This document shows, in pieces, positions 22,938 through 59,231 of a stretch of DNA of 64,000 bases. The first letter of the stretch is position 1. Every line of letters starts with the position of its first letter. Made by a program: the position numbers and the translations under genes. The stretch comes from a virus, in the IMG/VR virus record IMGVR_UViG_3300005617_000008, positions 1 to 64,000 of that record, one strand, 5' to 3'. The notes below the pieces were generated by a model. The model saw nothing but the letters and a program-made list of their open reading frames with translations. It searched no databases and was not told where the DNA came from.

Positions 22938-22951
22938 GAAAGGAGCAGCGC

Positions 22952-42268: not shown

Positions 42269-42274
42269 AAATAG

Positions 42275-42305
42275 AAAAGGCCCAACTCAATTAAGAATCG
42301 GGCCT
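42275..42305 (-). promoter_or_regulatory. Hairpin element A upstream of the tape measure
   Basis: AGGCCC/GGGCCT stem with loop region containing TAATTG (minus strand), followed by TTTTCTATTT and the tape-measure ATG. Shares the hexaloop position with elements at 43.9 and 56.4 kb. The short form lacks a clear second hairpin. Confidence 0.5.
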
Positions 42306-42318
42306 GCTCGAAGCCGCT

Positions 42319-42540
42319 CTAAAATGTCCAGCCCTCATTCGGAGGACGTAACTGGCGATACAGCTCAAATCCGATCATGCGCCACTGCTCAAGCGTGAGT
42401 ACGTTCTGGTGCAGCTTACTGCCATGCTTATTTTGAAACTTGAGCGTGCCATCTGAGATCTCAAGAAAAGGTTTCTGACAGTGATTGCAAATCAGTACCG
42501 AACCGGATTCTCGATGTTCGATAGTTAGCCGATGGGCCAT
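42319..42540 (-). CDS. Small zinc-binding tail-region protein (73 aa)
   Basis: ICNHCQKPFLEISDG near residue 17 gives a CxxC, with His residues around it. Lies between the chaperone gene and the tape measure. Unknown, possibly a tail-assembly accessory. Confidence 0.58.
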   Translation of the reverse strand: MAHRLTIEHRESGSVLICNHCQKPFLEISDGTLKFQNKHGSKLHQNVLTLEQWRMIGFELYRQLRPPNEGWTF

Positions 42541-42788
42541 TAGAAACTTTGCTCATTGAATTGCTTCGTAAACTTTGCCGCTTCGACTTTCGGAACTACG
42601 CGGGGCTGTCCGGTAATGGTCAAAGCTGTCAACTGCGCGGCCAGTTGTTCCGCTGCGCGTTTCTGCTCAAACTCATCCCAGATGATTCCACACTCGATAT
42701 TGAACGCCTGTGCGATAGCGTCGTCCGCGATCCCAAGTTCCTCTGCCGGACTTCTATGAGACAGCCGCACTGTCGTCATCAACGTCAA
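42540..42788 (-). CDS. Tail assembly chaperone, T-like extension frame
   Basis: Open frame of ~82 codons (LSHRSPAEELGIADDAIAQA...) overlapping the end of the upstream gene in the +1 register and open well upstream of it. The only in-frame starts (TTG, then ATG 42779) have no ribosome site. In siphoviruses this part is normally made by programmed frameshifting from the upstream chaperone. UUU-C at 42813-42810 (Phe codon slipping to UUC) is a candidate site and would give a fusion of about 226 residues. Confidence 0.6.
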   Translation of the reverse strand: MTLMTTVRLSHRSPAEELGIADDAIAQAFNIECGIIWDEFEQKRAAEQLAAQLTALTITGQPRVVPKVEAAKFTKQFNEQSF

Positions 42789-43221
42789 TACCTGATCCCG
42801 ATCCTTCAGGAAAGTTACTGACCGCTGCGACGGTCGTTTCTCCTTCCTTCAACCTAACGGGCATGGTTGGGCTTCCCTGCGCGAACCACATGAAGATCTG
42901 CCAAAAGTCGCGCACTGGAAGATCGTCGGGATGGTACTGACCATCCTTTGGATTCAGGGATACAACCGGACTGACAATCACGTCTGAGATCACCACCCGA
43001 GCGAAGTCCGTCAACTCTTCGACTTCTGGGTCAGAGAGTTTTTGGATAGCTTCTAATTGGGCATCTGCTGAGACCTTCTCCTTTGCGCCAACCTTATTCA
43101 GTACGCGCACGAATCGTCCGGCCTTTAGCGAAAGACTCGGACCTGGACGGCGCAACACCACTTGATTGCCCGAGTCACAGGTAAATGTCGTCACCTGCCG
43201 CCTAGACCATTGGTTGTTCAT
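42754..43221 (-). CDS. Tail assembly chaperone, G-like
   Basis: 155 residues: VSPVVSLNPKDGQYHPDDLP, VRDFWQIFMWFAQGSPTMPV, acidic end VDDDSAAVS. Sits between major tail protein and tape measure, where G/GT chaperones lie. Its 3' end overlaps an extension frame shifted by +1. Confidence 0.75.
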   Translation of the reverse strand: MNNQWSRRQVTTFTCDSGNQVVLRRPGPSLSLKAGRFVRVLNKVGAKEKVSADAQLEAIQKLSDPEVEELTDFARVVISDVIVSPVVSLNPKDGQYHPDDLPVRDFWQIFMWFAQGSPTMPVRLKEGETTVAAVSNFPEGSGSGIDVDDDSAAVS

Positions 43222-43847
43222 TAGGATTGTGCTCCCGCGTTCTGAGTGAAGTACCGCCCGACACGATCAGCAGCCAGTCGCGTCGATACCGCTAATCCAC
43301 GAAACGCTACTGGCGACTTGCTGATTTCCTTGCTTGTGATGTTCCCCGCGAGCCCCGCGTCGTTGAACGCCTTGTAGAGATGTACGACGCCAAAGCGAGT
43401 CGGATCATCTTCGAAAGGCCAGATAAGCGCGACTGAGGTATAGGTCTGATCAGCATTGCCAATTGTTACGCCTTTTGAGCCCATCACATCGCTACGGGTG
43501 AGAGTCGGATTCAGCACCTCGGCTAAATCCATGTCCATCACTTGCAGGATTGAGCCAGAGATGACTGCTTCCTGTGCAGTCACGCGCGAGATAATGGCAT
43601 CCGGTGACTCATCGGCAAAGAACTGCGTGAAGGTAGGCTTTACGAGGAACTGCCAGCCCGCGTCAGTCCAGCCGATGTGACGGGCATTTGGGTTCTGCGA
43701 TGAGTCAGGCGAGCCATCGGCGGCAAGGATCAGCCGCACCCCGGCAGCTCCATCCCACTGGCCTGAACCTGTACCGAGGTCAATATAAAATTTTCCTGGG
43801 CCTATACCCACGTCAACCGTGCTGAAGTTGTCTGCCGTACCAGCCAT
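43221..43847 (-). CDS. Major tail protein (208 aa)
   Basis: Forms the tail tube. ATG 43847 (MAGTADNFSTVDVGIGPGKF) follows GGAGATCCTCC; an upstream frame-extension through the hairpin is unlikely to be used. Mixed beta structure (FYIDLGTGSGQWDGAAGVRL, KPTFTQFFADESPDAIISR). Position directly before the chaperones is decisive. Confidence 0.82.
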   Translation of the reverse strand: MAGTADNFSTVDVGIGPGKFYIDLGTGSGQWDGAAGVRLILAADGSPDSSQNPNARHIGWTDAGWQFLVKPTFTQFFADESPDAIISRVTAQEAVISGSILQVMDMDLAEVLNPTLTRSDVMGSKGVTIGNADQTYTSVALIWPFEDDPTRFGVVHLYKAFNDAGLAGNITSKEISKSPVAFRGLAVSTRLAADRVGRYFTQNAGAQS

Positions 43848-43870
43848 TGGAGGATCTCCTTTGCAAAAGA

Positions 43871-43957
43871 AAAAGCCCGCCACTCTCTCCGATTAAGAAG
43901 AAAGGGGCGGACAGGTAAACGTCAGAAGCGTTTCTTAGACCGCTAAATGGTTATCAA
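43871..43957 (-). promoter_or_regulatory. Two-hairpin RNA element B before the major tail gene
   Basis: On the minus strand: TTGATAACCATTTAGCG (43957-43941), hairpin AAACG/CGTTT (43933-43929 with 43921-43917), then CCGCC/GGCGG (43910-43906 with 43881-43877) with loop TAATCG and a C-T5-C-T4 run. It fills the gap between the preceding gene's stop and the tail-gene ribosome site. Closely matches element C. Confidence 0.72.
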
Positions 43958-43962
43958 CTACA

Positions 43963-44481
43963 CTACTGCTCATTGAATACAAGCGTCACTTGCATCAAGG
44001 CGTCTCGATAATAGACTGACTCGCGCTCACGGATTGCTCCGTAGACATGCTCTAGCTCCAAAACAATACCAAAGATTATAGCACTCATGTTCCGTTTCCA
44101 ATCGGATTTTTTAGCAGAGCGGAGCGTGGCATCCAAAGCCGCCATATATTTCATTAGTTTTCGGGTAACATTCGGAGCTGAATCCGCAGTGACGCCAACG
44201 TAGATATCGAACCTTACTGCTTGATGAAGTCGATCTTGCGCGTCTGATTCCGTGGCTGCGTTTCGATTTGGGCCAATGGCGAGAGTGGGAAATACAAGCT
44301 TCTGAATCTGGCCTAGTGCCCGCTCTTGAAAGTCTTCGAGGTACTGTGGATCATCAGGAGAAAGCGCGGCTTCTATCGGGTTAAAGTCATCAAGTATGGA
44401 CTTGAAGCTCCCGGCTATTATATCGAGCGCATTATCAATTACGCCCTCTTCCTGAACCGCAAAGTATTTCGGGTCTGCCAC
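43963..44481 (-). CDS. Tail terminator-like protein (172 aa)
   Basis: Reads KSILDDFNPIEAALSPDDPQ, FDIYVGVTADSAPNVTRKLM, ALMQVTLVF, with the alpha/beta character of tail-completion (gpU-like) proteins. Between the morphogenesis gene and the major tail protein. Assigned by position plus pattern. Confidence 0.6.
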   Translation of the reverse strand: MADPKYFAVQEEGVIDNALDIIAGSFKSILDDFNPIEAALSPDDPQYLEDFQERALGQIQKLVFPTLAIGPNRNAATESDAQDRLHQAVRFDIYVGVTADSAPNVTRKLMKYMAALDATLRSAKKSDWKRNMSAIIFGIVLELEHVYGAIRERESVYYRDALMQVTLVFNEQ

Positions 44482-44963
44482 TAAGCCGCTCTCTCATCGA
44501 CGTGAAATCCCGCACTGCGCGTGAACTCGACTAGCCGTTGTTGGATGCTCTTCATAAACCTACGCTTCTGCTCCTCAGTGAGCGAAATGATCGGACGCGA
44601 CTTCTGATGAAATAATGCGTAAGGCACGGCTGAGCCGATTAGCAGTTCTTCTTTCTCAGGTCTAAGAACTGAGTCAAGCGCGTCCGGCCCAGTCATTGAT
44701 TCGTATAGTGCATCCTCGCGCCTGAGAATTGTCTTGCCGGGAAACTCACGCTCCTTGAATAGCTTGTAAGCCGGACTGAGCGGCGTCCACTTCCCTGATG
44801 CCCCACTTGCGCCCTCGCTCAGAAATTGTTCAGTCTCGATTTCATAGAAGGTCGTAATCACTCCCGGCCAGAAGTTTCGGAAATCTGTAATCTCCTGTTC
44901 GACGCGATTGAAGGCGCGGTCAATAATTACGTCGTTTCCTAGTTGGGCTGTAAAGCGTAACAT
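44481..44963 (-). CDS. Phage virion morphogenesis protein (gpG/HK97 gp10-like)
   Basis: 160 residues: FLSEGASGASGKWTPLSPAY, LIGSAVPYALFHQK, EEQKRRFMKSIQQRLVEFT. The W-x-PLS-Y and AVPYA-FHQ patterns fit the family that forms head-tail joining or tail completion parts. Confidence 0.75.
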   Translation of the reverse strand: MLRFTAQLGNDVIIDRAFNRVEQEITDFRNFWPGVITTFYEIETEQFLSEGASGASGKWTPLSPAYKLFKEREFPGKTILRREDALYESMTGPDALDSVLRPEKEELLIGSAVPYALFHQKSRPIISLTEEQKRRFMKSIQQRLVEFTRSAGFHVDERAA

Positions 44964-45842
44964 TTAGACGAACGCTGGCCCTCCCACCTTACCTCGCCAC
45001 TTGCGAGCTACGAGGTTCACTCTCGGTGGAATCGACTCTCTCAAGGGCTGGCCCTCGAGGTTAACAAGCTTTACTGTCGCAGGGTCTGATTCACGCCAAA
45101 GATTCAGTACCCACTCAATCACTGCTGCCTTAACGTCTTGAGGCGTCTCACGCCAGCCCCATACCGCAGAAACCGTGATAGCCACTCCTGACCACCATCC
45201 GGGCCACGCGTACCTGGCAAAACTGGAGACATGAAACGGAGGGACCAAGCCTCCCTCAGTCGTCAGCACTAGATAGCCGTTCTGCTCTACGTAAGTAGGC
45301 ATCGTGAAGTCACTTGGCACAGAGATGCTTAAAGTACCCGGCAAGTACGGTGGAACCTGAAGATAATTACCACCGTCGCCATAGATCGTCTTCGTTGTAG
45401 CAATCGGAATTTCAACCGGATTGAAGTATCGCTCAGGTACGCCGCACTCAAGATCGAACATGCGCGAGGCTTGTTCTATTAACGCTTCTAGTTCAGCGGG
45501 AGTCAGTGAGTTAGTTGTAGCCGATCCTCCTGCGCCTGCTCCACCTTGCGCACGGCGCCTAACTTCGATTGGAGAACAATAGCCAACGGAGCGCTGAATG
45601 CGTATCAGAAATGATCGCGTTTCTGATTCACTTCCCGCCGTGATGGTATTTGATAGTTCGTAGACTTCGCCCCACGTTCCGCCTGACAGCCTTATTAGGG
45701 TTGACGTGGCTGTCTTGTCGTCGGTAACTTTTGTAATACCGGAAGGAACAGACCAAGAAGAGGAACTAATAGTGAGAGCGCCCAGCCAGTCGGACCAGTC
45801 GATTTGATAATCTAAGACTTCTGTAGGTTCTTTTGTGAACAC
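44964..45842 (-). CDS. Head-tail connector with Ig-like start (292 aa)
   Basis: First 95 residues are a beta domain (VLDYQIDWSDWLGALTISSS, SLIRIQRSV). From about residue 115 it is helical with connector-type features (TPAELEALIEQASRMFDLEC, DVKAAVIEWVLNLWRESDP) seen in gp6-like adaptors. The combination appears to be a fusion of adaptor and decoration-type domain. Confidence 0.6.
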   Translation of the reverse strand: MFTKEPTEVLDYQIDWSDWLGALTISSSSWSVPSGITKVTDDKTATSTLIRLSGGTWGEVYELSNTITAGSESETRSFLIRIQRSVGYCSPIEVRRRAQGGAGAGGSATTNSLTPAELEALIEQASRMFDLECGVPERYFNPVEIPIATTKTIYGDGGNYLQVPPYLPGTLSISVPSDFTMPTYVEQNGYLVLTTEGGLVPPFHVSSFARYAWPGWWSGVAITVSAVWGWRETPQDVKAAVIEWVLNLWRESDPATVKLVNLEGQPLRESIPPRVNLVARKWRGKVGGPAFV

Positions 45843-47803
45843 TAAAGACTCCGATCCTCAAACGCGATTTCAATCATTCCGTGCTCGCCGTCAACTTTAG
45901 TTACTCGCGTGGCCTCTCGATCAATTCGTTGCCGGCGTTGTTCACTGCTCACTGTGATTGTACGGGTCTCGCCAAATACTTTGACGAACTCTCGGACGTG
46001 CAGATGGTAAACATTGCCTACTCTACCGCTTACTTCTACGCCTGACAATAGTAGCGCTACATCGTTGGGCGTGAAGGTTATTGGACTCGCGGTTCCAGTA
46101 ATTGAGGTTCCAGTTAGTGCAACTTCGTGTGAGCCGATGGGAGAGCCAACCGCAGATGAGGGCTGATTGCCTGTAATTGCAATGCGATATTGAGCACTGA
46201 GCTCTCCAGAAGCAGATGTGCTGTCAACACTCGAGATAGGCAGTAGGGATAAGTGAGAAACTGAACCCACTTGGGCACTGGCTTGAACACCTGAGATTGA
46301 TACTTCGCCGGACTTGGTATAAGCCAGAGACCCGACTTGCCCGATTGTTGTGTTACCTGAAAGCGTGATTGTGAGATTTGGTGAAACACTATCTACGTGA
46401 GACGTAGCCTCATCGCCGCTTAGTTCAAGTGAGCCGGACTTTGTAAGCCCCAGCGATCCCGCTTGACCTGTAGCTTCAATACCTGAGAGTACGGCACTGC
46501 CGGGAGATGAAGCAGATACAGATCCGACGCTCGCACTCGCTTCATTACTTGATAGTTCTCTTGTGATTGAGACGGTGAGATTCTCGCTACTTGCAGTTGC
46601 GGCCTCGCCACTGAGGGCCAAAGAAGTATTCAGTGACACACCGTTAACAGAACTTGTTGCGGAGACTTCCGATAGACCAGACAATCTATCAACTAAGACA
46701 TCCTCAGTTGACGCAGATCCGCTTACTCCAGAAAGTTGCACCTGTCCAGTCTTGGTAAAACTAAGATCCCCGACGCTCGATGAGGTTTCGACTCCACTTA
46801 ATGCAACATCAGCCGAAATGGTTAAAGTGCCGACATCGCTGAGAGATTCACTTCCTGAAAGTGTTAACGAACCAGATTTTGTAAAGCCAAGGTCCCCAAC
46901 AGATGCGAGGGAGTCAGTCCCAGTAATAGGAATACCCACGGAAGGCGTAACGTTTCCGGCTTCTACTGTAGCTTCTTCACCAGACAGATCAGCCGTGCCG
47001 CTTTCAGTAAATTCGACAGCGCCAACTTCTCCGGTAGCGACTTCAGACGTAAGCGGGATGGCAATGCTTACAGAGAGTGAATCGATCGCACTCGTCGCGG
47101 AAACGCCCGTGAGAGCACGATCTACATCGCCTGTAGCAAACGCCACATCGCCAACCGCCGAGGTGGCGTCATTGCCGACTAGCTCAACAGAGAGCGATGG
47201 AGATAGGGTGTCGGCCACCCCAGGGGCTTCATTCCCCGATACCGAAAGATCGACTGATGGAGTAACAGAACCAGTGCCCGCCAGTGCGGAATTGCTTGTT
47301 AGGCCAACTGAAGTATTGGGACTTAGTGATCCCGTGCTTGCGGAGGTCTCGACGCTAGAGATCTCAAGCAGTCCACTCTTGGTGAAATCCAGCGAACCTA
47401 CACTTGAAGTTGCCTCGTTTCCACTAATTGCAACCGACAATTTAGGAGAGAGGCTGTCGACACTCGTGCTGGCTTCATTTCCACTGAGAGCTAAAGTGTT
47501 GTTAGGTGTGAGCGTACCAACACTTCCTGATACCGCATTCCCGCTAATTGCTGTTGAATTGTTCGGACTAAGAGAACCAGCCGAAGCAGTTGCCGCGTTA
47601 GAAGTAATCGCAACTGAATTGTTAGGCGTGAGTGTTCCGGCATTCGCCGTTGCAGAAGCCCCGGACAGCGCCAGGCTAAGACCAACAACGAGACTACCGA
47701 TAGCTGATGTCGCAGAAACACCAGAGAGCCCAACTGTGACATTTGCAGACGGAGGCCCTTTCGAAATGAAAGGCTTAAACGGTTGTGAGCGTCCAAGTCT
47801 CAT
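45842..47803 (-). CDS. Repeat protein of >20 ~24-residue units (653 aa)
   Basis: Nearly the whole chain consists of copies like ALSGNEASTSVDSLSPKLSV, alternating with short forms ending in FTKSG. More than twenty repeats. An end domain (residues 605-653) is distinct and charged. Such serine-alanine-glycine repeat proteins occur in many phages beside connector genes and are thought to be virion surface repeats. The antisense strand also shows a long open frame (rejected below). Confidence 0.72.
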   Translation of the reverse strand: MRLGRSQPFKPFISKGPPSANVTVGLSGVSATSAIGSLVVGLSLALSGASATANAGTLTPNNSVAITSNAATASAGSLSPNNSTAISGNAVSGSVGTLTPNNTLALSGNEASTSVDSLSPKLSVAISGNEATSSVGSLDFTKSGLLEISSVETSASTGSLSPNTSVGLTSNSALAGTGSVTPSVDLSVSGNEAPGVADTLSPSLSVELVGNDATSAVGDVAFATGDVDRALTGVSATSAIDSLSVSIAIPLTSEVATGEVGAVEFTESGTADLSGEEATVEAGNVTPSVGIPITGTDSLASVGDLGFTKSGSLTLSGSESLSDVGTLTISADVALSGVETSSSVGDLSFTKTGQVQLSGVSGSASTEDVLVDRLSGLSEVSATSSVNGVSLNTSLALSGEAATASSENLTVSITRELSSNEASASVGSVSASSPGSAVLSGIEATGQAGSLGLTKSGSLELSGDEATSHVDSVSPNLTITLSGNTTIGQVGSLAYTKSGEVSISGVQASAQVGSVSHLSLLPISSVDSTSASGELSAQYRIAITGNQPSSAVGSPIGSHEVALTGTSITGTASPITFTPNDVALLLSGVEVSGRVGNVYHLHVREFVKVFGETRTITVSSEQRRQRIDREATRVTKVDGEHGMIEIAFEDRSL

Positions 47804-49042
47804 TTAGTACGTGCTGCTCCGGTTAACTGCTTGAGACTGAATATATATCCGATTCGGAATTACTACTGATGCCGTAACTGTTCCTTGCTGTATCCCAATC
47901 ACCGAGGGCGTAATCGTTCCCGTACCGCCGCCCGTGAGAATGCGAAAGTTGATTAGATCCGTGGTGGCTAACGTTACAGAATGGGTGAGATCTTCAACAA
48001 TGCCTGTCGTACTCGCGCCAATGCTCACAGTGAGCGCAGACGAAGCTCCACCTACCCGGAAATCAATCGTAGTCGCATCCGAGCGCGTGTTTGTCTTGGT
48101 GTTCGTGAATAGCTTCGAGATGATCTGAGCCGCGCGAGCTTTTACCTGGGCGTTAGCTTCGGTCGTGGTTACAGGAGTCGGGTTGACGCTGCCGCAGAGA
48201 GGGATGAAATTACTGGTGCTGGCTCCCTGCGCGACTATCCCCGAGCCTGGTTCAGCAATGCCGACCTGAAACCCACTGGAAGCAGATTTGATTTGAAAGC
48301 TGCTCAGAAAACCGCTGCCTGTGCCTCCTAGTACCGAGTAACAAACCTTGTCTCCGGCGCTGACTGAGTCTGAGTGCGTGGTGTCAGTCTTTGCGCCTGT
48401 TTGACCAGAGGTGTAGGAGATTACCTGAGTTCCATCTGCGCCATTGATGCGAGTTTTGATCGTGTAAGTCTGTAAGGTGTTTGAGTTGCAGAAAACACGG
48501 AAGTTGGAAAGCGTGGAAGCGGCACGGAACGTGTACTGAGCATTCGCTTCAACTGTGCCGTCAGTAGCGCTGTCCCCCACTAGACAAACGTAACCAGTAG
48601 CACTGACTGGTGCGGCACCGTTGTAGAAAGCCGCCAGCAGGAGCGGAACATTTGCCCCGCCATCATCGAACAAACATGAGACCGCTGAGAGGGTAACGGT
48701 GTTGGTGTGAGTTGCACCGACGACGATTTGCACATCAAAGTCGTCAGCCGCTAACAGGGAATCTGTATGAGTAGTATCTTCAAATGTTCCAGTGCCAGTG
48801 ATTGAGACACTTTGAGCACCATTTGCGCCACTGATCCGACTGGTAAGCGTCTGAGTGCCGTTATTTGCAGTGACGCGACACCAGAGATTTGACGCGGTAA
48901 GGGAGTCAAGAATGCGGAGGCTTATCCTGCCGTCCTCCGCAGACTGGACATTACACCCACCCGCAATCGGGAGCCAGCGAGTCGTGCCCTGGTTGGAAAC
49001 GGCTCCCGCTGCGGCTCCGAAGGTGTAGATCCATGCGGTCAT
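47804..49042 (-). CDS. Beta-rich tandem-domain surface protein (412 aa)
   Basis: Three ~130-residue units with Thr-His-Ser-Asp patterns (TGTFEDTTHTDSLLAADDFD, GQTGAKTDTTHSDSVSAGDK, GIVEDLTHSVTLATTDLINF) are clearly homologous to each other. Probably a virion surface or decoration protein. Confidence 0.65.
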   Translation of the reverse strand: MTAWIYTFGAAAGAVSNQGTTRWLPIAGGCNVQSAEDGRISLRILDSLTASNLWCRVTANNGTQTLTSRISGANGAQSVSITGTGTFEDTTHTDSLLAADDFDVQIVVGATHTNTVTLSAVSCLFDDGGANVPLLLAAFYNGAAPVSATGYVCLVGDSATDGTVEANAQYTFRAASTLSNFRVFCNSNTLQTYTIKTRINGADGTQVISYTSGQTGAKTDTTHSDSVSAGDKVCYSVLGGTGSGFLSSFQIKSASSGFQVGIAEPGSGIVAQGASTSNFIPLCGSVNPTPVTTTEANAQVKARAAQIISKLFTNTKTNTRSDATTIDFRVGGASSALTVSIGASTTGIVEDLTHSVTLATTDLINFRILTGGGTGTITPSVIGIQQGTVTASVVIPNRIYIQSQAVNRSSTY

Positions 49043-49046
49043 CTAG

Positions 49047-49457
49047 TTATGGTGTCACGGTGAAGTTGGTCGTGGAGATTATGTTATTCGTGTTTCCGCG
49101 AGGCCGGATTGAAGCCTTTGCCTGCCACTGTCCGGTAGAGTCGTTGCATGGAATGGTATAGCTGGCGGTGATGTCGATGGTCTGATGCGCAGGGATGTCA
49201 ATATAAGTGTAGAGTAGATCTTCTGAACCGGGGCCGTTGGTTGGCCCACCGGGAAGGCAGGGATTGACCACCATCATCTGCACGTTGACGCTGTTCATGC
49301 CGCTGTTGCTACAGTTGGTAAAATGTCCGGTGACTTGGATCGTCTGGCCTACCGTGGCAGGGTTAGGCGTTTCACTGATACCGACAGAGACGCACTTTTG
49401 CAGCGAGGGGGTGAAGCTGAGACTTAGTAAAGTGATTAGTAGAAGTAATTTCATCAT
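49047..49457 (-). CDS. Secreted Ig-like protein (136 aa)
   Basis: Signal peptide MMKLLLLITLLSLSFTPSLQ with likely cleavage after SLQ, then a beta-sandwich (SVGISETPNPATVGQTIQVT, IDIPAHQTIDITASYTIPC) with four Cys for two disulfides, CARDB-like. A signal peptide inside a virion gene run is odd: it would act in or beyond the host periplasm. Confidence 0.65.
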   Translation of the reverse strand: MMKLLLLITLLSLSFTPSLQKCVSVGISETPNPATVGQTIQVTGHFTNCSNSGMNSVNVQMMVVNPCLPGGPTNGPGSEDLLYTYIDIPAHQTIDITASYTIPCNDSTGQWQAKASIRPRGNTNNIISTTNFTVTP

Positions 49458-49481
49458 TTCTCCTTTAGCGGGTTAGAGGGT

Positions 49482-49970
49482 TTATTCCAGCACTATAAGA
49501 CCGGGTCCGAACTGGATGTCGGCGGAGTCTTTAAGTGATTTGAGATGGGCTTGAGTGAATCCAGAGATCTTTACGACCAGGCGGCGCTGCTCGTCAAAGT
49601 GCCACTCATAGTCGGAGTGATCGAACTGTGGTCTCACCTGTTTTGCGATTATCGCCAGAGTGCTCTGCCGCCTGCTTTCATCCAGCACGGCGTCATACAA
49701 AGCCTTGCCGTGGACATGGCCCGCATCTCTATGAACCTTGCAAACGACCTCTTTTGGTCGGGTCTCACGGAAGTCTGGTTTGATAGTACCAGGCCGCGCG
49801 ACGGCCTCAGCGGCAGTAATAGCATTAGCTTCTTCCTCTGTAACGAAATGGTGGACCCGCGCATCCTGCGGCACCTCGTCATCAAACGATTCATGCACTA
49901 CGCAAGCCTCTCTATTGCCATTAACGCGATCCCGACAAATCATAGGAGTCCATGTCTGCGTCCTAAGCAT
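49482..49970 (-). CDS. Hypothetical protein (162 aa)
   Basis: DARVHHFVTEEEANAITAAE and a central CKVHRDAGHVHGKALYDAVL; a late acidic C-terminal helix. His/Asp-rich but no family recognised. One-base overlap with the methyltransferase-like gene. Confidence 0.58.
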   Translation of the reverse strand: MLRTQTWTPMICRDRVNGNREACVVHESFDDEVPQDARVHHFVTEEEANAITAAEAVARPGTIKPDFRETRPKEVVCKVHRDAGHVHGKALYDAVLDESRRQSTLAIIAKQVRPQFDHSDYEWHFDEQRRLVVKISGFTQAHLKSLKDSADIQFGPGLIVLE

Positions 49971-50431
49971 TAGAGCACCTCCAGTGTGGCATCATCATGA
50001 ACAACTAGAATCGTACTCGCGTTAATCTTTCCCAAATTATCCTGCGCAAACTTCGTCGAGATGCTTACTACTGCAACGTCAACATGATCGTCAATAAAAG
50101 TTCCCTCGATGAGTTGCACTTGAGAATTATTTGCGGCAAGTACTCTGCGTCCGGCTGCGAGAGCTTCAGGATTCAATTCAGTTGCGTATACCGGACTCGC
50201 CCCTAGCTTCTCAGCCGCAATAGAGAGAATGCACGAACCCGCACCGAGCTCGTGAAACGACATTCTCGGTTTGACATATTGAGACAACGCGAGCAGTGCA
50301 GCTTTCGTTGTGTCATGCCAGCCCGCGCCGTAACAGTGGCCCAGCGGTGGCATTACGATGCGCCACTTACCTTCAGGAGTAGGAGTAGAGTCCCAATCAC
50401 CCGCTATAACGAACGAGCCGACCTTGATCAC
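49970..50431 (-). CDS. PrmA-like SAM-dependent methyltransferase (153 aa)
   Basis: FHELGAGSCILSIAAEKLGA is a class I motif I, followed by VYATELNPEALAAGRRVLAA, as in PrmA-type protein methyltransferases. Shorter than PrmA (catalytic domain only). Presence inside the virion gene run suggests it modifies a virion protein or host target (inference). Confidence 0.75.
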   Translation of the reverse strand: MIKVGSFVIAGDWDSTPTPEGKWRIVMPPLGHCYGAGWHDTTKAALLALSQYVKPRMSFHELGAGSCILSIAAEKLGASPVYATELNPEALAAGRRVLAANNSQVQLIEGTFIDDHVDVAVVSISTKFAQDNLGKINASTILVVHDDATLEVL

Positions 50432-50449
50432 TTGCTCAACCTTTTAATT

Positions 50450-50478
50450 AAAACGGCCACGATCAGCAGTCCGTGACC
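50450..50478 (-). terminator. Rho-independent-like terminator
   Basis: Minus strand GGTCACG pairs with CGTGGCC (one GU) over a 10-nt loop, followed by GTTTTAATT. Lies between the 50509 gene and the methyltransferase-like gene and would reduce transcription into it. Confidence 0.5.
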
Positions 50479-50508
50479 GCGATTGGTTTTATTCCCTTAT
50501 TTACCCAA

Positions 50509-51021
50509 CTACACTTCCACAACCATGTAAGCGTAGGCGTTGACTGCTGTTCCTGCTTTTACCCGAATACGGGCAAACTTCGAGACCTGAATCACGGGCT
50601 CACGTCCTAATGGAAACTGCTTGACGTACTGGTTTGTGGGCGCAATCAATTGAATGTCGAATTCACGGATGGCAGTTATCGTTCCTTCACCGGAGGCGTT
50701 GTATCCCGTTGAAGTTGTTCCTACGGGAAACAGATTAGTAGTCGGATCACCACCCGCAAGAGCTTCGGCGTTTAGCTTCATAATGTCATTTGCAACCGAA
50801 GCTGTTACAGTAGCCGCTACGTCCGTTTCGCAGAGTTCGACCTTGATCGGAGTTGCTGCGGCTGAACCGTCAAACGAGATTCCCCACTCAATGATCTTGA
50901 AGGTTGCTGTAGCGCTGGCCTTCACTTGGAGCAACGTCAGAATCGCGGTGGTAGTAGACAGGGTAGCAAAAGATGCCGTTGTCGGCATCGGGCCACTACC
51001 GATAAGGTACTGTTGGGCCAT
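50509..51021 (-). CDS. Beta-rich virion-like protein (170 aa)
   Basis: Reads STTTAILTLLQVKASATATF, FKIIEWGISFDGSAAATPIK, KFARIRVKAGTAVNAYAYMV. Pattern fits small beta-sandwich decoration or tail-associated proteins next to the head genes. Confidence 0.6.
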   Translation of the reverse strand: MAQQYLIGSGPMPTTASFATLSTTTAILTLLQVKASATATFKIIEWGISFDGSAAATPIKVELCETDVAATVTASVANDIMKLNAEALAGGDPTTNLFPVGTTSTGYNASGEGTITAIREFDIQLIAPTNQYVKQFPLGREPVIQVSKFARIRVKAGTAVNAYAYMVVEV

Positions 51022-51024
51022 CTT

Positions 51025-51489
51025 TTACGCTATCCGCAGTAGTCCGGTGGTCGCATCGTTCGTCGGCATCGTGAGGGTGAACGTACCGGCGGTCACAGTC
51101 TGACTCCCAAAGGTGTGAACACTCACCGCTTTATCACCTTGAGTAGAGTTATAAATGAGCACCGCATCAAACGCAGTAGAGAGTGTCACGTTAGTAAATA
51201 CGATTGAGTTTGTAGGCGTAGTGAACGCAGTGGTGCCGGAAGTGTTGGGCGCAATCCAGTCAGGTGATCCGGTTAGGTCAACTCCTCCTGCGGTGTAATT
51301 CGTTCCTGAGACCTCGCCCGTTGACGAATAGGCCGTAGTGCCAGCACCTAACGAGGCAGAAGCAAGAAATAGCGCAGCCTTGAAAGAGTCGGGGGTTGTG
51401 CCGGCTCGAACTACTGAAGTACCCAAGGCGTGGATTCCGTTAAGAATCTCCTTTTTGAACGAAGTGCACATGCTTTGCGAGTTAGCCAT
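51025..51489 (-). CDS. Beta-rich virion-like protein (154 aa)
   Basis: ILNGIHALGTSVVRAGTTPD, TTAFTTPTNSIVFTNVTLST: a pattern of phage decoration-type or 'minor capsid' proteins of unknown exact role. Four bp from the previous gene. Confidence 0.6.
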   Translation of the reverse strand: MANSQSMCTSFKKEILNGIHALGTSVVRAGTTPDSFKAALFLASASLGAGTTAYSSTGEVSGTNYTAGGVDLTGSPDWIAPNTSGTTAFTTPTNSIVFTNVTLSTAFDAVLIYNSTQGDKAVSVHTFGSQTVTAGTFTLTMPTNDATTGLLRIA

Positions 51490-51502
51490 TTTCCTCTCTC
51501 CT

Positions 51503-51691
51503 TCAGAGCTGAGCCGCTACACCTTCAATCGAAACATTCTTCTTCAGTGTCACATGGGCCGAACGATGAACAAGTTCTCCGTTTAAGTAGTATTCCGTCC
51601 ACGTCGTATACTCATCCTCATTGTCCACCGCTCCGGTTCGTTTTTCCAGGAGCGATTCGTCCATCTCACCGTGGGTAGTAGTAACTAGCAT
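51503..51691 (-). CDS. Small hypothetical protein (62 aa)
   Basis: Reads TWTEYYLNGELVHRSAHVTL, a short beta-type segment common among phage proteins next to capsid genes. Stop and start of neighbours abut closely. Unknown. Confidence 0.55.
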   Translation of the reverse strand: MLVTTTHGEMDESLLEKRTGAVDNEDEYTTWTEYYLNGELVHRSAHVTLKKNVSIEGVAAQL

Positions 51692-52998
51692 TAGGCAACC
51701 GCCTTGCTCGCGCTGCGCCGCTTGTTCTCTTCCGGCGATGCAATAGCTTTATTCTCAGCCGGGGCAGAGATCGCCTTCGCGTCAACATCAATCCAGCCAT
51801 TCTCACGCGCTAATGCCTCGGGAATCTGAGTGCCCTTGCCCGCAATCTGCACCACTGCCCCAACTGGAATCCGGCCTGGATTATCCACGGCCTTGTAACT
51901 CCCATCCTGCATCTTGTAGATCCAACGATCTGAGGTCCACATTTTCATCGCTTCTGGTACTCCATTTCTGTATCGCGCGGCAGTTTCAATTAACGCCCCT
52001 TCAAGTCTATCAAATTCACTCTCAGGATTAAGGGAGTCAGCCAGCGCCAACACCGCGTTAGATCGCTGTCGATAGTAGACTTCATCAGTGAGCAGCCGAT
52101 CCACTTCGACGTACCATGCTGCAATATCATTTCGATCGATGAAGATTCCCGCATCTCCAAAGGCTTCCTTTAATCCTTCAGTCGGATGCGCTATCGTGGG
52201 AATTCCTGCACAAGCAGCCTCAATTCCTACTCGCCCATAAGACTCGTAATCTGAGGGCATCAGCAGCACTTTGGTTTTGCGGAATACTTCTCGAATATCC
52301 GGCGTATGGGCCATCCATTCGATGTTTCCTGAGGCGGCGTACTTCGGATCGGTTCCGGGTGCTGTGATTACCTGATCACCATAGCCGCCTTCGACCGCAA
52401 GGAATTCACTATCAGGCATCTGTTTCGCCAGTGCCTTAAACGTATTTGCGCCCTTAGTTGGTGTCGGATTAACGAGGGTAATCTTTGTTCCGGTTTCGCA
52501 GCGATAGCGCTCCGGCTCAACTACGGGATGAACGATGATTGATGGAGCTAACCACTCATCAGGCATCTCCTGTCCAGCCCATTGACTGCGTTTTACTGCT
52601 AACCAGTGCGAGTTATAGATCGTGAGTGCGTTCTTATAAGGCACTCGAGCGTCTACGCGCCAGTACATGAGTTGCGCATCGTTGTGAACGAAATGAACCA
52701 AGGGAATCTTCGTCGCCATTGCGAGGCTCATGGCCTGGCTAGTGAGGTCGAGATGGGTAACGAGAAGATCGGAATCTTTGACGAAGTGCTCTAGCCATGA
52801 TTGCACACCTCGACGTGGGGGTCTGACTACGTTGATACCATCGATCTCATAAGGTGCGGTCTTGCTGCGGTCGCAAACTACGTTAACGGTATGCCCACGC
52901 CGCACCGTTGCCCGGAGCGCTGCATGGACAGTAGTTTCACTTCCCGCGTTATGCTCGGGCGGAAATAAATGGAAGTAGCCAGTTAGTCTCATTTGCAA
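51691..52998 (-). CDS. GT4 glycosyltransferase with C-terminal extension (435 aa)
   Basis: Residues 1-350 form a GT-B glycosyltransferase: HLFPPEHNAGSETTVHAALR at the start, and the GT4 signature LLMPSDYESYGRVGIEAACA near residue 225 with EAFGDAGIFIDRNDIAAWYV. After residue 350 come an uncharacterised segment and an Ala/Lys tail. Sits two genes from the capsid cluster, so it may modify virion proteins or host glycans. Confidence 0.85.
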   Translation of the reverse strand: MQMRLTGYFHLFPPEHNAGSETTVHAALRATVRRGHTVNVVCDRSKTAPYEIDGINVVRPPRRGVQSWLEHFVKDSDLLVTHLDLTSQAMSLAMATKIPLVHFVHNDAQLMYWRVDARVPYKNALTIYNSHWLAVKRSQWAGQEMPDEWLAPSIIVHPVVEPERYRCETGTKITLVNPTPTKGANTFKALAKQMPDSEFLAVEGGYGDQVITAPGTDPKYAASGNIEWMAHTPDIREVFRKTKVLLMPSDYESYGRVGIEAACAGIPTIAHPTEGLKEAFGDAGIFIDRNDIAAWYVEVDRLLTDEVYYRQRSNAVLALADSLNPESEFDRLEGALIETAARYRNGVPEAMKMWTSDRWIYKMQDGSYKAVDNPGRIPVGAVVQIAGKGTQIPEALARENGWIDVDAKAISAPAENKAIASPEENKRRSASKAVA

Positions 52999-53005
52999 AG
53001 TTGGC

Positions 53006-53048
53006 GGCGGTCACCTGCTGCGAAGAAGGCGAACTTAAGGTAACCGCC
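53006..53048 (-). repeat. Imperfect inverted repeat after the HNH gene
   Basis: GGCGGTTACC and GGTGACCGCC (minus strand) can pair with one mismatch over a ~23-nt loop. It lies just before the GT4 gene start; no U-run. Could limit readthrough from the HNH gene. Confidence 0.35.
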
Positions 53049-53053
53049 TTTCA

Positions 53054-53791
53054 TCACGGGCTGTTGTGCGCCGCGACAATTTCAGGTAACGGCCCATATA
53101 GTTCACGGTAGCGTTTCAAATCTGCCACGTCCCTCATTCTATCTGCCACTGTTTTATTCGAGTGCTCCATCAACGAAAGCAACTGAAGGTTTTCAGGTCT
53201 GTTATCAGTCTTTATTCGGTTGATATGGTCCACGTGTTCCTCAGTCAACAGGTATCTTCCGAGCGCCTCTTCCATAATCAGGCGGTGATAAAGAATACGT
53301 CCGTGACTCGTCTTTGCCTTTGGGTGGTCCGGCTTCCAAACCCTGACATAACCAGCCTTATCAATGATCGCAGGACGCCCGTTATAATCAAAGCCCGCGT
53401 GTCGGGTTGTCTGTCCGATTGCCTTGCAGTCCTTAGAGCAAAAGCGGCCTGCGCCTGCCAATGCTTCTGATGGTCTAAGTTCATATTCCTTACCGCATGT
53501 CTCACAGGTTCGTCGCGTCTTAGGCTTAGTATGTCCAATGCTTTGACAGCGCCGTGAGCAATACTTCTGACTGTTAAACCAAGGCTGGCGATAAAATACC
53601 AAGCCACAAACCAGACAGGGCTTTTCAGTGCCAGTCCGAGGCTTACAGGGCACGTAGCACTTTCGAGAGCAGAACACACGCCCCGTCTTATTACGAGCCA
53701 AGTCCGAAACTCGGCGGAGATCTGGCTTACCACACGTCTCACACTTAACCTCGACTTGCTCAACTTTGTACCTTCCCTTTTTAACGTACAT
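53054..53791 (-). CDS. HNH homing endonuclease with Cys-pair fingers (245 aa)
   Basis: N-terminal 130 residues contain three CxxC...CxxC fingers (CETCGKPDLRR...FCSRKC, CLVCGLVF...YCSRRC, CETCGKEY...FCSKDC). The HNH core follows: RILYHRLIMEEALGRYLLTE, EHVDHINRIKTDNRPENLQL. Free-standing homing endonuclease inserted next to the capsid gene, with its own weak promoter. Confidence 0.85.
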   Translation of the reverse strand: MYVKKGRYKVEQVEVKCETCGKPDLRRVSDLARNKTGRVFCSRKCYVPCKPRTGTEKPCLVCGLVFYRQPWFNSQKYCSRRCQSIGHTKPKTRRTCETCGKEYELRPSEALAGAGRFCSKDCKAIGQTTRHAGFDYNGRPAIIDKAGYVRVWKPDHPKAKTSHGRILYHRLIMEEALGRYLLTEEHVDHINRIKTDNRPENLQLLSLMEHSNKTVADRMRDVADLKRYRELYGPLPEIVAAHNSP

Positions 53792-53827
53792 TGTCGTACC
53801 CCCAGCTAACCAATCGATGTACGTTTA

Positions 53828-53857
53828 AGTATATCGCGTAAACTAGCGGTACGGCAA
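53828..53857 (-). promoter_or_regulatory. Possible promoter for the HNH gene
   Basis: Minus-strand TTGCCG (53857-53852) and TATACT (53833-53828), spacer 18 bp, about 35 bp before the HNH ATG. Confidence 0.35.
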
Positions 53858-53889
53858 TACGTTTAATCAAAGAACGTTATGCGAAAACC

Positions 53890-55215
53890 CTAGGAATTCG
53901 CGCCAGAATGGAGATCTATTTTGACGACGGCGGGTGGCCGGAGCACACCAAACGCCCATCGACCTTCATACAAGATGTCGATGATGTTGCGCTCGAAGTG
54001 GTCTCGGTTCGAGTCAGTCATGTATACCGTTGGATCTTGTCGGTCCCACACGACCAACTGTTTCAGATCGCCTGTGTAGCCAGTGCCTTGTGGGATGACT
54101 TCCGACTCGATGACCGGGAGGCCCCACAGCATTTTAGTGCCCATCTGCATTGGGCCACCAAAATAGAACTGCCCCTGCGCCCCGCGCGCAAGATCAATGG
54201 TCTCCCAATCGTAAGAATTGAGCAGGAACGCAGTCGAGCGCGCACGGCCTTGAATCATGGCGGCAGTGCGGGCCTTGCGTGTTGTGGTTAAAAGTCCGCC
54301 TGTAGTGTCTTCTGTGTCTGGCACAAAAGCCTGCGGCGTCAGATTCGGCGTGTTCTCCAGTCCAGTGAAGTGATTCGCGCCTCCCGGTCCCGCCACGATT
54401 TCCTCTTCAAGCTCGAGATCGATATCACGACGCATGAAGTTCGTCATCATTGACTGAAGCTGTGGTGCATCCGCAAGGATCGTGCGGGTGGCTTGCATGA
54501 TGACCGCAATGGTCTTCACGCCAGTTTGAACGACTTCGAGAGACATGCTCGCTTTCGGCTTGAGCGCGAGATCGTCAGTGGCGGAGGTCGCCTCGGGAAC
54601 AATCTTGGCCGCACGGGTGAGCGAGTTAACCCGCACATACTCAATCAGATTTGAGCCTGTCTGGAGAATCGTAATCACGTCACGAATACTTGGCTCGCGC
54701 AGTGGCAAGTCAATCGGCCAAGGACCATAGTCACGACGGATAAGCGAGCCACCAGCCGTTCCCGGTACGGTCATCACGAGGTCTTTGAATGACAAATCAC
54801 CTAAGCCTACATCTGCCGGCTTGATATCTGGTGATCTGCCAAACTTAATCGTGCCCATCTCTTTACCTTCAGGGGCAATCTGAGCACGCCACGCCTTAAA
54901 GTCCGGCGTGTTGATGAGCAGTTCGCCCATCGTTTTGAGTTCAGGCTGAGCGTCGCCGCCGAGATTGCCAAAATCAGGACGCCCTACGGGCTGCTTGAGG
55001 AAATCGTCAATTGCCTTCAGGCGCTTCTTTCGATCCGCGTACTTGTTCTCTTCGTCAACCTCTGCAACCAACTCTTCGATTCGTTTCCAGCGAGTATCAA
55101 GTTCGGCTTTCTGTTCGGTAGTAGGGTCTTCCGAACCTTGCTTTGCCCAAAAAGCCTGCTCTGCGTCTTTCAGTTCCTTGAGTTCCTGCGTGGCTGTTTT
55201 TTTCTCTTCGGCCAT
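53890..55215 (-). CDS. Major capsid protein (HK97 fold)
   Basis: First ~105 residues are a charged coiled coil (delta scaffold domain, probably removed by the protease). The body shows VPGTAGGSLIRRDYGPWPID, MSLEVVQTGVKTIAVIMQAT, and the AAMIQGRARSTAFLLNSYDW and GLPVIESEVIPQGTGYTGDL blocks of HK97-type coats; it ends HSGANS. 441 residues. Directly after the protease gene. Confidence 0.9.
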   Translation of the reverse strand: MAEEKKTATQELKELKDAEQAFWAKQGSEDPTTEQKAELDTRWKRIEELVAEVDEENKYADRKKRLKAIDDFLKQPVGRPDFGNLGGDAQPELKTMGELLINTPDFKAWRAQIAPEGKEMGTIKFGRSPDIKPADVGLGDLSFKDLVMTVPGTAGGSLIRRDYGPWPIDLPLREPSIRDVITILQTGSNLIEYVRVNSLTRAAKIVPEATSATDDLALKPKASMSLEVVQTGVKTIAVIMQATRTILADAPQLQSMMTNFMRRDIDLELEEEIVAGPGGANHFTGLENTPNLTPQAFVPDTEDTTGGLLTTTRKARTAAMIQGRARSTAFLLNSYDWETIDLARGAQGQFYFGGPMQMGTKMLWGLPVIESEVIPQGTGYTGDLKQLVVWDRQDPTVYMTDSNRDHFERNIIDILYEGRWAFGVLRPPAVVKIDLHSGANS

Positions 55216-55237
55216 CTTTTGCTCCTTCTGTCGAGAG

Positions 55238-56356
55238 CTACGCGAGTGCTCGAATAGCGAGACTCTGCATGCGTAGCGATTGAGTCCTTAGCGTATCCAC
55301 GTCGATCTCTTTTTCTTTAGGCTTCGGTTCGCTCATAGCCAGTAGCGCGTCGAGATCTCCCATGAGTGCCGTGAGGGAGTCTTTGCATTTCTGTACCGTG
55401 GCGCGATTTGAAGTCGAGAGTACGCGGCCCTCTTTTACGCGGGCTTCGTGGTTACGCTGCATGTTTTCGATAAACTTCTTCAACGCAGCGGGTGCCGCTT
55501 TATCGAAGGACTCAAAGGATTCGGATGCCGTGATCTCTTTGAGGTAAAACTCGTCATCAGAACTGGTTAGAAATTCTTCAATTTGTGCCGTGACTAACGG
55601 GATCATCGTGGGCGGATACTCGTTGAACGCTTCCGCGACCTTCGCCTTCCAGTCCATTACTACGCCAGTCACATTAGAATCTTTCGCGGTCTCGGCAATC
55701 TTGCGGATGACACGGCGCAGAGCTGAGTCAATTTCCCACGTGGAAGGCGTTGTTTGGGCCATCTCTTCAGCAAGCATGCCTTTCGACTCGTTGGTGATGG
55801 ACTTAACCGCAGTCGCCATTGCCAGCTTGTTCATTGGTGCCGTGACTATTGAGTCTTCGATCACTTCGCCTTTTTTCAGGATGCGGATGCGATCGAACTT
55901 CTGCGCCTTTTGTAGATTTGCTTGCAGTCGCTCGGCTTTCACGTAGAGCGGCAACTGCTCTTTGTAGTCTTTGGCTTCGATATAGGACTTATCTGACACC
56001 GAATAGCCAAACGAGAAGCCCACACGCTTGCCGGCCTTCTTACGTTCAACTGCCTTGGTGCGAACCGCCTGTGCGTCAGGCGTGGAGTGAAATTCCGAAT
56101 CGACAAAGAAGCCGTGGTCATCTTCCTTCGCAACCATCGGATAACCAACCGCTTTATCAAAATCCCAATCATGCGAGTGCGCTGTAAATCCCGCCTCCAG
56201 GTATTCGGTTATGCAGTCCTTGAAAAAGCCGGGAACGATGAGATCCCCGCCTTCGTCAATTTCATTAAAGACTGCTCGATAGCCAGAGATATGGCCCGGA
56301 CCTTCATCTGAGACCGTCAGGTCTTTCAGGTCGATGAACTTGCGCTCAATGTCCAT
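55238..56356 (-). CDS. Prohead protease (HK97-type)
   Basis: Cuts scaffold/delta domains during capsid maturation. FTAHSHDWDFDKAVGYPMVA (catalytic His) and KAGKRVGFSFGYSVSDK (catalytic Ser) are both within the first 150 residues. The remaining C-terminal 200+ residues are a helical extension that may serve as scaffold, since no separate scaffold gene is seen. ATG 56356 preceded by GGAG; the longer frame through the hairpin is less likely. Confidence 0.87.
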   Translation of the reverse strand: MDIERKFIDLKDLTVSDEGPGHISGYRAVFNEIDEGGDLIVPGFFKDCITEYLEAGFTAHSHDWDFDKAVGYPMVAKEDDHGFFVDSEFHSTPDAQAVRTKAVERKKAGKRVGFSFGYSVSDKSYIEAKDYKEQLPLYVKAERLQANLQKAQKFDRIRILKKGEVIEDSIVTAPMNKLAMATAVKSITNESKGMLAEEMAQTTPSTWEIDSALRRVIRKIAETAKDSNVTGVVMDWKAKVAEAFNEYPPTMIPLVTAQIEEFLTSSDDEFYLKEITASESFESFDKAAPAALKKFIENMQRNHEARVKEGRVLSTSNRATVQKCKDSLTALMGDLDALLAMSEPKPKEKEIDVDTLRTQSLRMQSLAIRALA

Positions 56357-56384
56357 TTCTTGAAGGCTCCAGAAAAATACGAAA

Positions 56385-56461
56385 CCCGCCATGACTCCCG
56401 GTTAGGAATCAGGCGGGCGGTAAGCATCGTTGTGCTTCGTGGCTCGCTAAGTGGTTATCAA
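56385..56461 (-). promoter_or_regulatory. Two-hairpin RNA element C before protease-capsid
   Basis: Minus strand: TTGATAACCACTTAGCG (56461-56445), hairpin AAGCA/TGCTT (56437-56433, 56426-56422), then CCCGCC/GGCGGG (56417-56412, 56390-56385) with inner TGA-TCC/GGA-TCA pairs and loop TAACCG, then TTTCGTATTTTT. Stems differ from element B by paired changes while loop and flank are conserved. Confidence 0.72.
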
Positions 56462-57160: not shown

Positions 57161-57318
57161 ATCTCTTCATCCATAAACCGTAAGAATACTGACTGACATT
57201 CGGCCTCGACCACCTGAAGCAGCCGCTCAATTTCTTCATCAGATAAGCCAGCGGGTAGAGGGGCGCTTGCGATCTCCCGCCACTCACCGCCAGTCGATGA
57301 TTTTCCAGTCCGATCCAT
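57157..57318 (-). CDS. Short acidic protein (53 aa)
   Basis: MDRTGKSSTGGEWREIASAP, LSDEEIERLLQVVEAECQSV. Its start lies 35 bp inside the fucosyltransferase 3' end in another frame, and its stop overlaps the next ATG. Resembles short helical phage proteins; unknown. Confidence 0.52.
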   Translation of the reverse strand: MDRTGKSSTGGEWREIASAPLPAGLSDEEIERLLQVVEAECQSVFLRFMDEEI

Positions 57319-58045
57319 AAATATCATCCGCCCTCAACTGCGTATACTTCGGTCCGAACCACGGCCTCGGCGCAATCACTCGCTTATCCGGCGCATCGCT
57401 CAGCACTGCGGCCATTGCGGAGTAGCTTGAGTTGGCGATGATAAAGTGTTTGCATTTCTTCATCGACTTGAAATCTTCCAAGTAATCCCGCCCTTCGGAA
57501 TACTCAACTCCTGAGCCAAACATTTGCCGCGCTCCTGCAATGTCATCACTGAAGACGAGAAACTTTGCACCGTGGAACTCTTCCATTGCGGGACGATAGT
57601 AATCCATTGTCAGTCGCGGATGATAACCTTCGCCGTCGTTGTAATCCCCCGCGCGCCAATGAATTGCTACGTAGTCATTCTGCGGTGGCTCGTCTTTCAT
57701 GCGCAATTGCCAACGAACCTCGTCAATCGCGTGTGAGAAGAATTTCTCTGATTGCATGTGACCTGATAGGCTGGCGCTCTCAGTCAGGATCTCGTCTCTA
57801 AATCCCCAGTCAACGAACCTGTCAGGTAATGGCGGTCCATCATAACGGGGTAAGGGATTCTCGAAATACTTCTCAACGTCAATGTCTTCGGTGGAGTTGA
57901 ATCGCTCACGATGGTCCCAGTTGCGCCATTCAGGGAATAACGGTATCGCATTGTTCCGTCGTGCTATCCCGATTGTCGAGGCGATCTGGTAGAGCGCGTT
58001 GGCCCACCGTCCGTACCTCCCCAGCGCTGCAAATGTCACTATCAT
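57284..58045 (-). CDS. GT11 fucosyltransferase (alpha-1,2-type)
   Basis: 253 residues. N-terminal FAALGRYGRWANALYQIAST matches the 'GRLGNQMFQYA' start of GT11. The donor-binding block is VAIHWRAGDYND near residue 128 (family consensus H-x-R-x-GDY), followed by ANSSYSAMAAVLSDAPDKRV, the family's 'SNSSFSWWAAWL' motif. Transfers fucose from GDP-fucose; a GDP-fucose synthase lies just upstream. Confidence 0.87.
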   Translation of the reverse strand: MIVTFAALGRYGRWANALYQIASTIGIARRNNAIPLFPEWRNWDHRERFNSTEDIDVEKYFENPLPRYDGPPLPDRFVDWGFRDEILTESASLSGHMQSEKFFSHAIDEVRWQLRMKDEPPQNDYVAIHWRAGDYNDGEGYHPRLTMDYYRPAMEEFHGAKFLVFSDDIAGARQMFGSGVEYSEGRDYLEDFKSMKKCKHFIIANSSYSAMAAVLSDAPDKRVIAPRPWFGPKYTQLRADDIYGSDWKIIDWR

Positions 58046-58148
58046 AATGAATACTATTTACTCCACAGTTAACGCACCATGCCTCACCTTGCTCGTACTG
58101 CTCCCACTCGTGCGCAATACCAGTCAAAGGTTGAGCGTAGGCCCTCAT
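57930..58148 (-). CDS. Possible overlapping Cys protein (72 aa)
   Basis: Frame covering the gap between fucosyltransferase and fucose synthase, reading IAHEWEQYEQGEAWCVNCGV then NSIHYDSDICSAG, like small phage zinc proteins. Overlaps both neighbours in another frame (116 and 65 bp). Kept as low confidence. Confidence 0.35.
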   Translation of the reverse strand: MRAYAQPLTGIAHEWEQYEQGEAWCVNCGVNSIHYDSDICSAGEVRTVGQRALPDRLDNRDSTTEQCDTVIP

Positions 58149-59004: not shown

Positions 59005-59231
59005 ACGTAGCGACGCGGAGGCTTTGGTATAGACGGCGTTGACGGAATAAATCCCGGAATTCTGACGGCTCCGCACCAGCAAAGCAAATTCCGCGATCCT
59101 GTCCAGCGTTGGAATCGATGCCGATGTTTCAGTGCTGGCAATGGGCCAATCTTCACGAAGTAAAGAACACGGCTCCAAGCATTATGCAGTGCAATGACCA
59201 GTTGATTGTCCTGATCTGAGATATGCTTCAT
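59001..59231 (-). CDS. Hypothetical protein (76 aa)
   Basis: TAATG start with the FkbM gene stop, ATGA end with the fucose-synthase gene, so both flanks support it. Basic, Pro-rich at the end (GFIPSTPSIPKPPRRYV). Unknown. Confidence 0.5.
   Translation of the reverse strand: MKHISDQDNQLVIALHNAWSRVLYFVKIGPLPALKHRHRFQRWTGSRNLLCWCGAVRIPGFIPSTPSIPKPPRRYV

Follow-up and report, generated by a model that had tools for sequence, protein, structure and literature searches.

An RNA element conserved ahead of the head and tail gene blocks of uncultured soil-type phages suggests a stop-or-go switch for late genes

The DNA analysed here, referred to as the window, is a stretch of 64,000 nucleotides (nt; positions 1 to 64,000) of the 67,055-base IMG/VR virus record IMGVR_UViG_3300005617_000008, about 3 kb of which lie outside the window. 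The subject of this study is an RNA element found there in two copies, B and C, and a simpler hairpin, A. The late genes of this phage are on the minus strand. In the order of transcription, element C is followed by the head maturation protease, the major capsid gene, HNH endonuclease and glycosyltransferase-like genes, and tail-fibre adaptor and neck genes; element B then precedes a tail-tube-like gene, two small genes, hairpin A and the tape measure gene. Element C directly precedes the protease gene, with the capsid gene next, so that the capsid gene itself is not the immediate neighbour. We infer the tail-tube function from the position of the gene between the neck/completion genes and the tape measure gene; it has no family match. 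The tape measure gene starts at ATG 42268 and has no Shine-Dalgarno sequence. Terminase and portal genes, at 21-2984, are also on the minus strand. The features are as follows.

43934..43957, minus strand: element B box, TTGATAACCATTTAGCGGTCTAAG, a boxA-like leader strand, 24-25 nt before hairpin 1
43917..43933, minus strand: element B hairpin 1, AAACG-CTTCTGA-CGTTT, boxB-like in position
43875..43912, minus strand: element B hairpin 2, predicted intrinsic-terminator stem-loop, free energy -23.1 kcal/mol
43865..43874, minus strand: element B U-tract, TTTTTCTTTT
56438..56461, minus strand: element C box, TTGATAACCACTTAGCGAGCCACG
56422..56437, minus strand: element C hairpin 1, AAGCA-CAACGA-TGCTT
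56384..56418, minus strand: element C hairpin 2, predicted intrinsic-terminator stem-loop, free energy -25.0 kcal/mol
56373..56383, minus strand: element C U-tract, TTCGTATTTTT
42274..42309, minus strand: hairpin A before the tape measure gene, terminator-type stem and U-rich tail, without a box
55238..56356, minus strand: head maturation protease gene (phrog_80), ATG 56356, downstream of element C
53890-55215, minus strand: major capsid gene, next after the protease gene
43221..43847, minus strand: tail-tube-like gene, ATG 43847, Shine-Dalgarno AAGGAG at 43861-43856, downstream of element B

Elements B and C have in common, on the minus strand, a 24-nt leader box (TTGAYAAC-N6-GCGRGYYNAG), a hairpin of 5 base pairs (bp) at a fixed distance and a GC hairpin with a U-tract. 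A sequence-only reading of this DNA had described a 17-nt flank shared by the two. A search of the window found this flank exactly at 43957-43941 and 56461-56445 on the minus strand, and no third site in the window even at 3 mismatches (0.25 expected). Each element sits between the upstream stop codon and the Shine-Dalgarno sequence and ATG of the tail-tube-like gene (B) or the protease gene (C), a placement which that reading had also noticed and which is repeated in the relatives described below. In a full-model scan of window positions 30000-64000, B scored 79 bits (expectation value, E, ~1e-16) and C 75 bits (E ~1e-15). Hairpin A, which had been proposed as a shorter relative before the tape measure gene, scored 9.4 bits in the same scan, and its E of 2.1 rules it out as a full copy. 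It is a related terminator-type hairpin, the only feature that it has in common with B and C, and no demonstrable copy of the element. C (-25.0 kcal/mol), B (-23.1) and A (-20.3) are the strongest intergenic terminator-like hairpins on the late strand between 27 and 64 kb, and are exactly the three at or below -20 kcal/mol. A weaker intergenic hairpin of this kind (50453-50480, minus strand, -14.5 kcal/mol; GCGGTCACGGACTGCTGATCGTGGCCGT then TTTAATTA) lies before the gene at 49970-50431 and also has no box.

Relatives of the tube and protease genes were found in uncultured virus contigs, and their upstream regions carry the element. Its layout in the relatives is TTGAYAAC, 6 variable bases, GCGRGYYNAG, a 5-bp hairpin, the linker ACC(T), a GC hairpin, a U-tract and the ribosome site. 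Hairpin 1 starts 24-25 nt after the first T of the box (23 copies), and its stems are replaced wholesale while the spacing stays constant (AAACG/CGTTT, AAGCA/TGCTT, CGTCA/TGACG, GAAAC/GTTTC, CGGAT/ATCCG, TTCGG/CCGAA). In the model-fitted alignment, two-sided compensatory changes occurred in 14 of the 17 pairs. Compensatory cells numbered 153, compared with 52.0±8.7 in shuffled alignments and 56 or fewer in slid structures, and the covariation score was 0.509 against 0.222±0.014 after shuffling; this alignment was fitted to the structure and therefore leans towards it. Hairpin 1 is visible without an alignment too, and RNAalifold recovered hairpin 2 from a plain alignment, with two-sided changes in 8 of its 12 pairs. 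The compensatory stem changes quoted in the sequence-only reading are real and form a small part of this larger signal. Covariation across about 30 related contigs thus shows a predicted two-hairpin structure under selection as RNA, as had been suspected.

The covariance-model search, which returned these covarying homologs in related phages, found the element ahead of the protease gene, the tube gene or both in about 30 contigs of uncultured phages, and the duplication at head and tail units holds there as well. In about 750 kb it was found at no other gene, save for two weak matches (L202, L203; E ~0.2). Exact-pattern scans for the box elsewhere in viral contigs gave nearly only this type of locus, and the matches in L202/L203 and L207 are likely chance matches in coding sequence. 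The element is kept before a tube gene just 49% identical to that of the window (L024). In two contigs (L005, L013), unrelated coding-like DNA replaces the sequence upstream of the tail element and the element is kept, as if a gene had been inserted before it. In L010, upstream of 3688, a different hairpin (GAATAGC...GCTATTC) stands in place of the tail element and would cover the region beside the tube ribosome site; it is possibly another type of control.

The sequence-only reading had guessed at the skipping-rope RNA family. A search of the genome with RF02924 found nothing at E<=10, and no Rfam family matched the element or the window; a match to ctRNA_p42d reflected a shared U-tract only. 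That interpretation was right in structure and placement and failed in the family guess, and it overlooked the host boxA-like flank and the canonical terminator nature of the GC hairpin. The element had no match in cultured phages, and in the cultured phage MW202444 the hairpins before the protease and tube genes are unrelated to it. No account of it was found in the literature available as open-access full text. A host chromosomal RNA family was rejected: there was one significant match in 119 Pyrinomonadales-order genomes and a weak, probably terminator-driven one (G293) in 396 Acidobacteriota genomes, in searches whose coarse first filter limits sensitivity. Because it is nearly absent from these genomes, the element appears to be phage-specific. 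A short leader peptide (TTG AYA .. TAG) was also rejected, as its codons are not conserved and the second positions vary. An attenuator based on pairing between the box and a terminator arm was discarded as well; GCGG/CCGC pairing is possible in tail copies, but by inspection it does not covary.

Homologous genes and leader similarity indicate that the host order is likely Pyrinomonadales (Acidobacteriota). A related protease gene is present in a Pyrinomonadaceae metagenome-assembled genome (L116), the element itself occurs in one contig of a Pyrinomonadales genome (L222/L223), and related tube, tape-measure, fibre and capsid genes are present in three more genomes of this order. The full element in L223 (994-1084, minus strand) lies near IS1595 transposase and Type-ISP restriction-modification-like genes and has no head or tail gene downstream. 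This locus is possibly a phage remnant.

Because the layout of the element suggested a nut site, we examined the ribosomal RNA (rRNA) leaders of the likely host. Pyrinomonadales rRNA leaders contain GATNTTTGAAAACTAGATATGCGAGTCCATG or GATCTTTGAAAACTAGATAGAGCGTGTCC. A weight matrix made from 21 phage boxes only, with a gap of 0-2 allowed after position 14, picked the boxA position of the 16S leader at 8.0-22.1 bits in 29 of 31 distinct Pyrinomonadales leaders. One exception, L226, has a longer spacer and was missed altogether; in the other, L252, the right position was picked at -5.2 bits. Shuffled leaders scored 6.9 or less, and the chance of such a score per 350-nt leader ranges from 9e-6 (22.1 bits) to 7e-3 (8.0 bits). 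Among about 457,000 scored positions of rRNA loci, the high scores were nearly all boxA; the best exceptions were 14.0 bits, in an rRNA-operon promoter region (L250), 11.0 and 9.6. Like host rRNA leaders, the phage box has the boxA 3' core, UUGANAAC, and the leader sequence that follows it. Leaders of other Acidobacteriota share the universal TCTTTGA(A/C)AAC core and score lower (mostly -11 to 6.5, best 8.5), so the phage box also has order-typical sequence; its match runs past boxA into the GCGWGUCC sequence typical of Pyrinomonadales.

Hairpin 2 had a free energy of -19.3 to -28.5 kcal/mol in 25 of 25 copies, with 5-7 U in the next 8 nt, and by sequence criteria it is a canonical intrinsic (Rho-independent) terminator. 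In the L021-L031-type clade and at hairpin A, the start codon lies about 10 bases or less past the U-tract, with no evident Shine-Dalgarno sequence; with a start codon so close, a message terminated there would end just short of the gene. Very strong terminators without a box were seen in distant relatives from Pyrinomonadales genomes, before the tube gene (L296, upstream of 4834) and before the protease gene (L298, 3929-4014, minus strand). It is plausible that terminators at module borders came first and that the module of box and hairpin 1 was added later in this lineage.

The structure, the terminator signature, the duplicated placement and the similarity to the boxA region are all established at the level of sequence comparison. 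Our analysis suggests that the element is a stop-or-go switch, with B and C as two copies of a cis-acting, Nus-factor-dependent RNA gate that would control late transcription into the head and tail modules, a proposal that we hold tentatively, at slightly less than even odds. A polymerase leaving the upstream gene would make a boxA-like strand resembling the host rRNA antitermination signal, and next the small hairpin 1, in the position of lambda boxB. Next, 3-5 nt further on, would come the intrinsic terminator, with the ribosome site of the head module (protease, capsid) or the tail module (tube) immediately behind it. In the default state this terminator would halt some or all polymerases. 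Nus-type factors on the box and hairpin 1, probably with a phage protein reading hairpin 1, would let the polymerase pass; a converted polymerase would continue through the long late operon, and an unconverted one would stop. In the published picture, boxA recruits NusB-S10 and boxB brings in N, giving a complex that is resistant to intrinsic terminators (PMC10250234). By analogy with this boxA/boxB/N picture, on which the read-through proposal for the box and hairpin 1 is built, we infer recruitment of Nus factors, a phage partner on hairpin 1 and conditional read-through. The covarying structure, the fixed spacing, the canonical terminators, the leader match, the host link and the persistence at the 49%-identical tube gene favour such a gate. 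A further step, which we consider possible and somewhat more doubtful, is that these phages have a previously undescribed class of late-gene switch: a nut-like RNA that mimics the rRNA leader, is fused to a terminator of its own and is present in duplicate, so that host Nus factors and a phage protein would gate head and tail in parallel.

Several points weigh against a read-through gate. Host boxA begins with GATNTTTGA, whereas the 8 nt ahead of TTGA are not conserved among 32 phage copies. In E. coli, boxA depends critically on its 5' half (C4 and T6 of GYTCTTTAANA; PMC5725501), so that NusB/S10 might not bind an RNA from which this half is absent. No N-like protein was identified, the small early proteins not having been screened for one, and the hairpin-1 loops (5-12 nt, mostly C...GA) are not the purine-rich pentaloops of lambda boxB. 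The leaders share ancestry, so the 29 matches in 31 are not 29 independent trials. A read-through signal merely ~20 nt before its own terminator is unusual. The tail copy is missing in L010 and L011, where a gate would then not be essential, and the L298 protease gene stands behind a strong terminator without a convincing box (E 0.038). As a separate observation, the Pyrinomonadales leaders L226-L262 vary freely at boxA position 4 (GATATTTGA, GATGTTTGA, GATTTTTGA, GATCTTTGA), which in E. coli is a critical C.

The main rival is operon punctuation with message protection. Hairpin 2 would be a partly efficient terminator ending the upstream messages and a protective cap near the 5' side of read-through head and tail messages, and the box and hairpin 1 would tune folding or RNase processing, with no antitermination factor. 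Canonical terminators exactly at module borders fit this explanation, as do the terminator-type hairpins, lacking a box, that relatives have ahead of tape measure, protease or tube genes. It leaves unexplained, however, a 24-nt linear box that is more conserved than the stems, its fixed spacing and its match to host rRNA leaders, and we consider it rather unlikely. The put RNAs of HK022, about 70 nt long with two stem-loops, suppress termination (PMC9378689), and the similar size and number of hairpins might mean that the transcript acts here on RNA polymerase directly, without protein helpers. This seems improbable, as one of the two hairpins, the second, is a terminator here, conservation is highest in a linear box that matches rRNA boxA, and the element is placed at late modules, whereas put lies at early operons.

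Two other explanations give the box a different role, and both appear slightly more improbable still. Nus proteins on the box might repress the downstream gene by cutting its translation or promoting termination, as boxA upstream of E. coli suhB represses via Nus factors and Rho (PMC5725501). The ribosome site here, however, is ~90 nt downstream, behind the terminator, and there would be little point in repressing the capsid and tube genes late in infection. The box could instead be a TTGACA -35 or a phage-specific promoter, with the hairpins as a 5' leader containing an attenuator. TTGACA/TTGATA does fit a -35 hexamer, and leader hairpins stabilise some phage messages. However, the aligned copies inspected have no -10 hexamer at 15-19 nt spacing, a promoter scan gave no sigma-70 match at B or C, and transcription would begin within hairpin 1, whose arms covary as RNA; a sigma-70 promoter was rejected for the missing -10 and this start site. 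A promoter for a phage RNA polymerase was likewise rejected, as the window (with ~3 kb of the record outside it) has no family match to a single-subunit RNA polymerase and no unassigned frame of that size.

To our knowledge, most known cases of RNA-directed antitermination in phages come from lambdoid phages of enterobacteria. If the gate proposed for B and C exists, hijacking of the rRNA antitermination machinery would be wider than thought and would serve late structural genes. The element, covarying, duplicated and host rRNA-leader-like, belongs to phages of an abundant, largely uncultured order of Acidobacteriota, and it offers a sequence-based clue to the host order, together with a covariance model by which such phages can be found. 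Elsewhere in the window, the phage encodes an IS605 OrfB/TnpB-like transposase with a Cas12f1-like TNB domain (21822-22967, minus strand), a DNA polymerase III beta-clamp-like protein (19236-20381, plus strand) and a phosphoheptose-isomerase-like protein (20432-20932, plus strand). Glycosyltransferase-like and nucleotide-sugar epimerase genes lie among the head and tail genes, at 51691-52998 and 57284-59178 (minus strand).

Among known systems, the layout of the element resembles a lambda nut site (boxA and boxB) fused to a terminator. In both, a linear box and then a small hairpin, whose stem is free to vary, lie on the transcript upstream of an intrinsic terminator, and here a covarying 5-bp stem-loop directly follows the boxA-like strand, as in nut. 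Unlike nut, the phage element has no boxA 5' half and no boxB-type loop, its terminator is adjacent, it has two copies inside a late operon, and no N protein was identified, none having been searched for. The element would work most like a nut site, yet we do not file it as a member for want of the 5' half, of the boxB-type loop and of a search for N; the missing 5' half leaves nut/boxA membership not established. The Pyrinomonadales rRNA leader, TTGAAAACTA...GCG(A/T)GTCC, agrees with the phage box along ~24 nt, apart from a gap of 1-2 nt; the host 5' GATNT (GYUCU in E. coli) is missing in the phage, where a terminator is added. HK022 put RNA is likewise a phage RNA of ~70-90 nt with two hairpins that is proposed to act on transcription, but it differs in sequence, in its place at early operons and in terminator character. 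Skipping-rope RNA (RF02924) is a structured RNA of similar size that does not match. Hairpin 2 has all the sequence features of intrinsic terminators at phage gene borders, but unlike these the element has a conserved, covarying upstream module and stands right before the genes that it would cut off.

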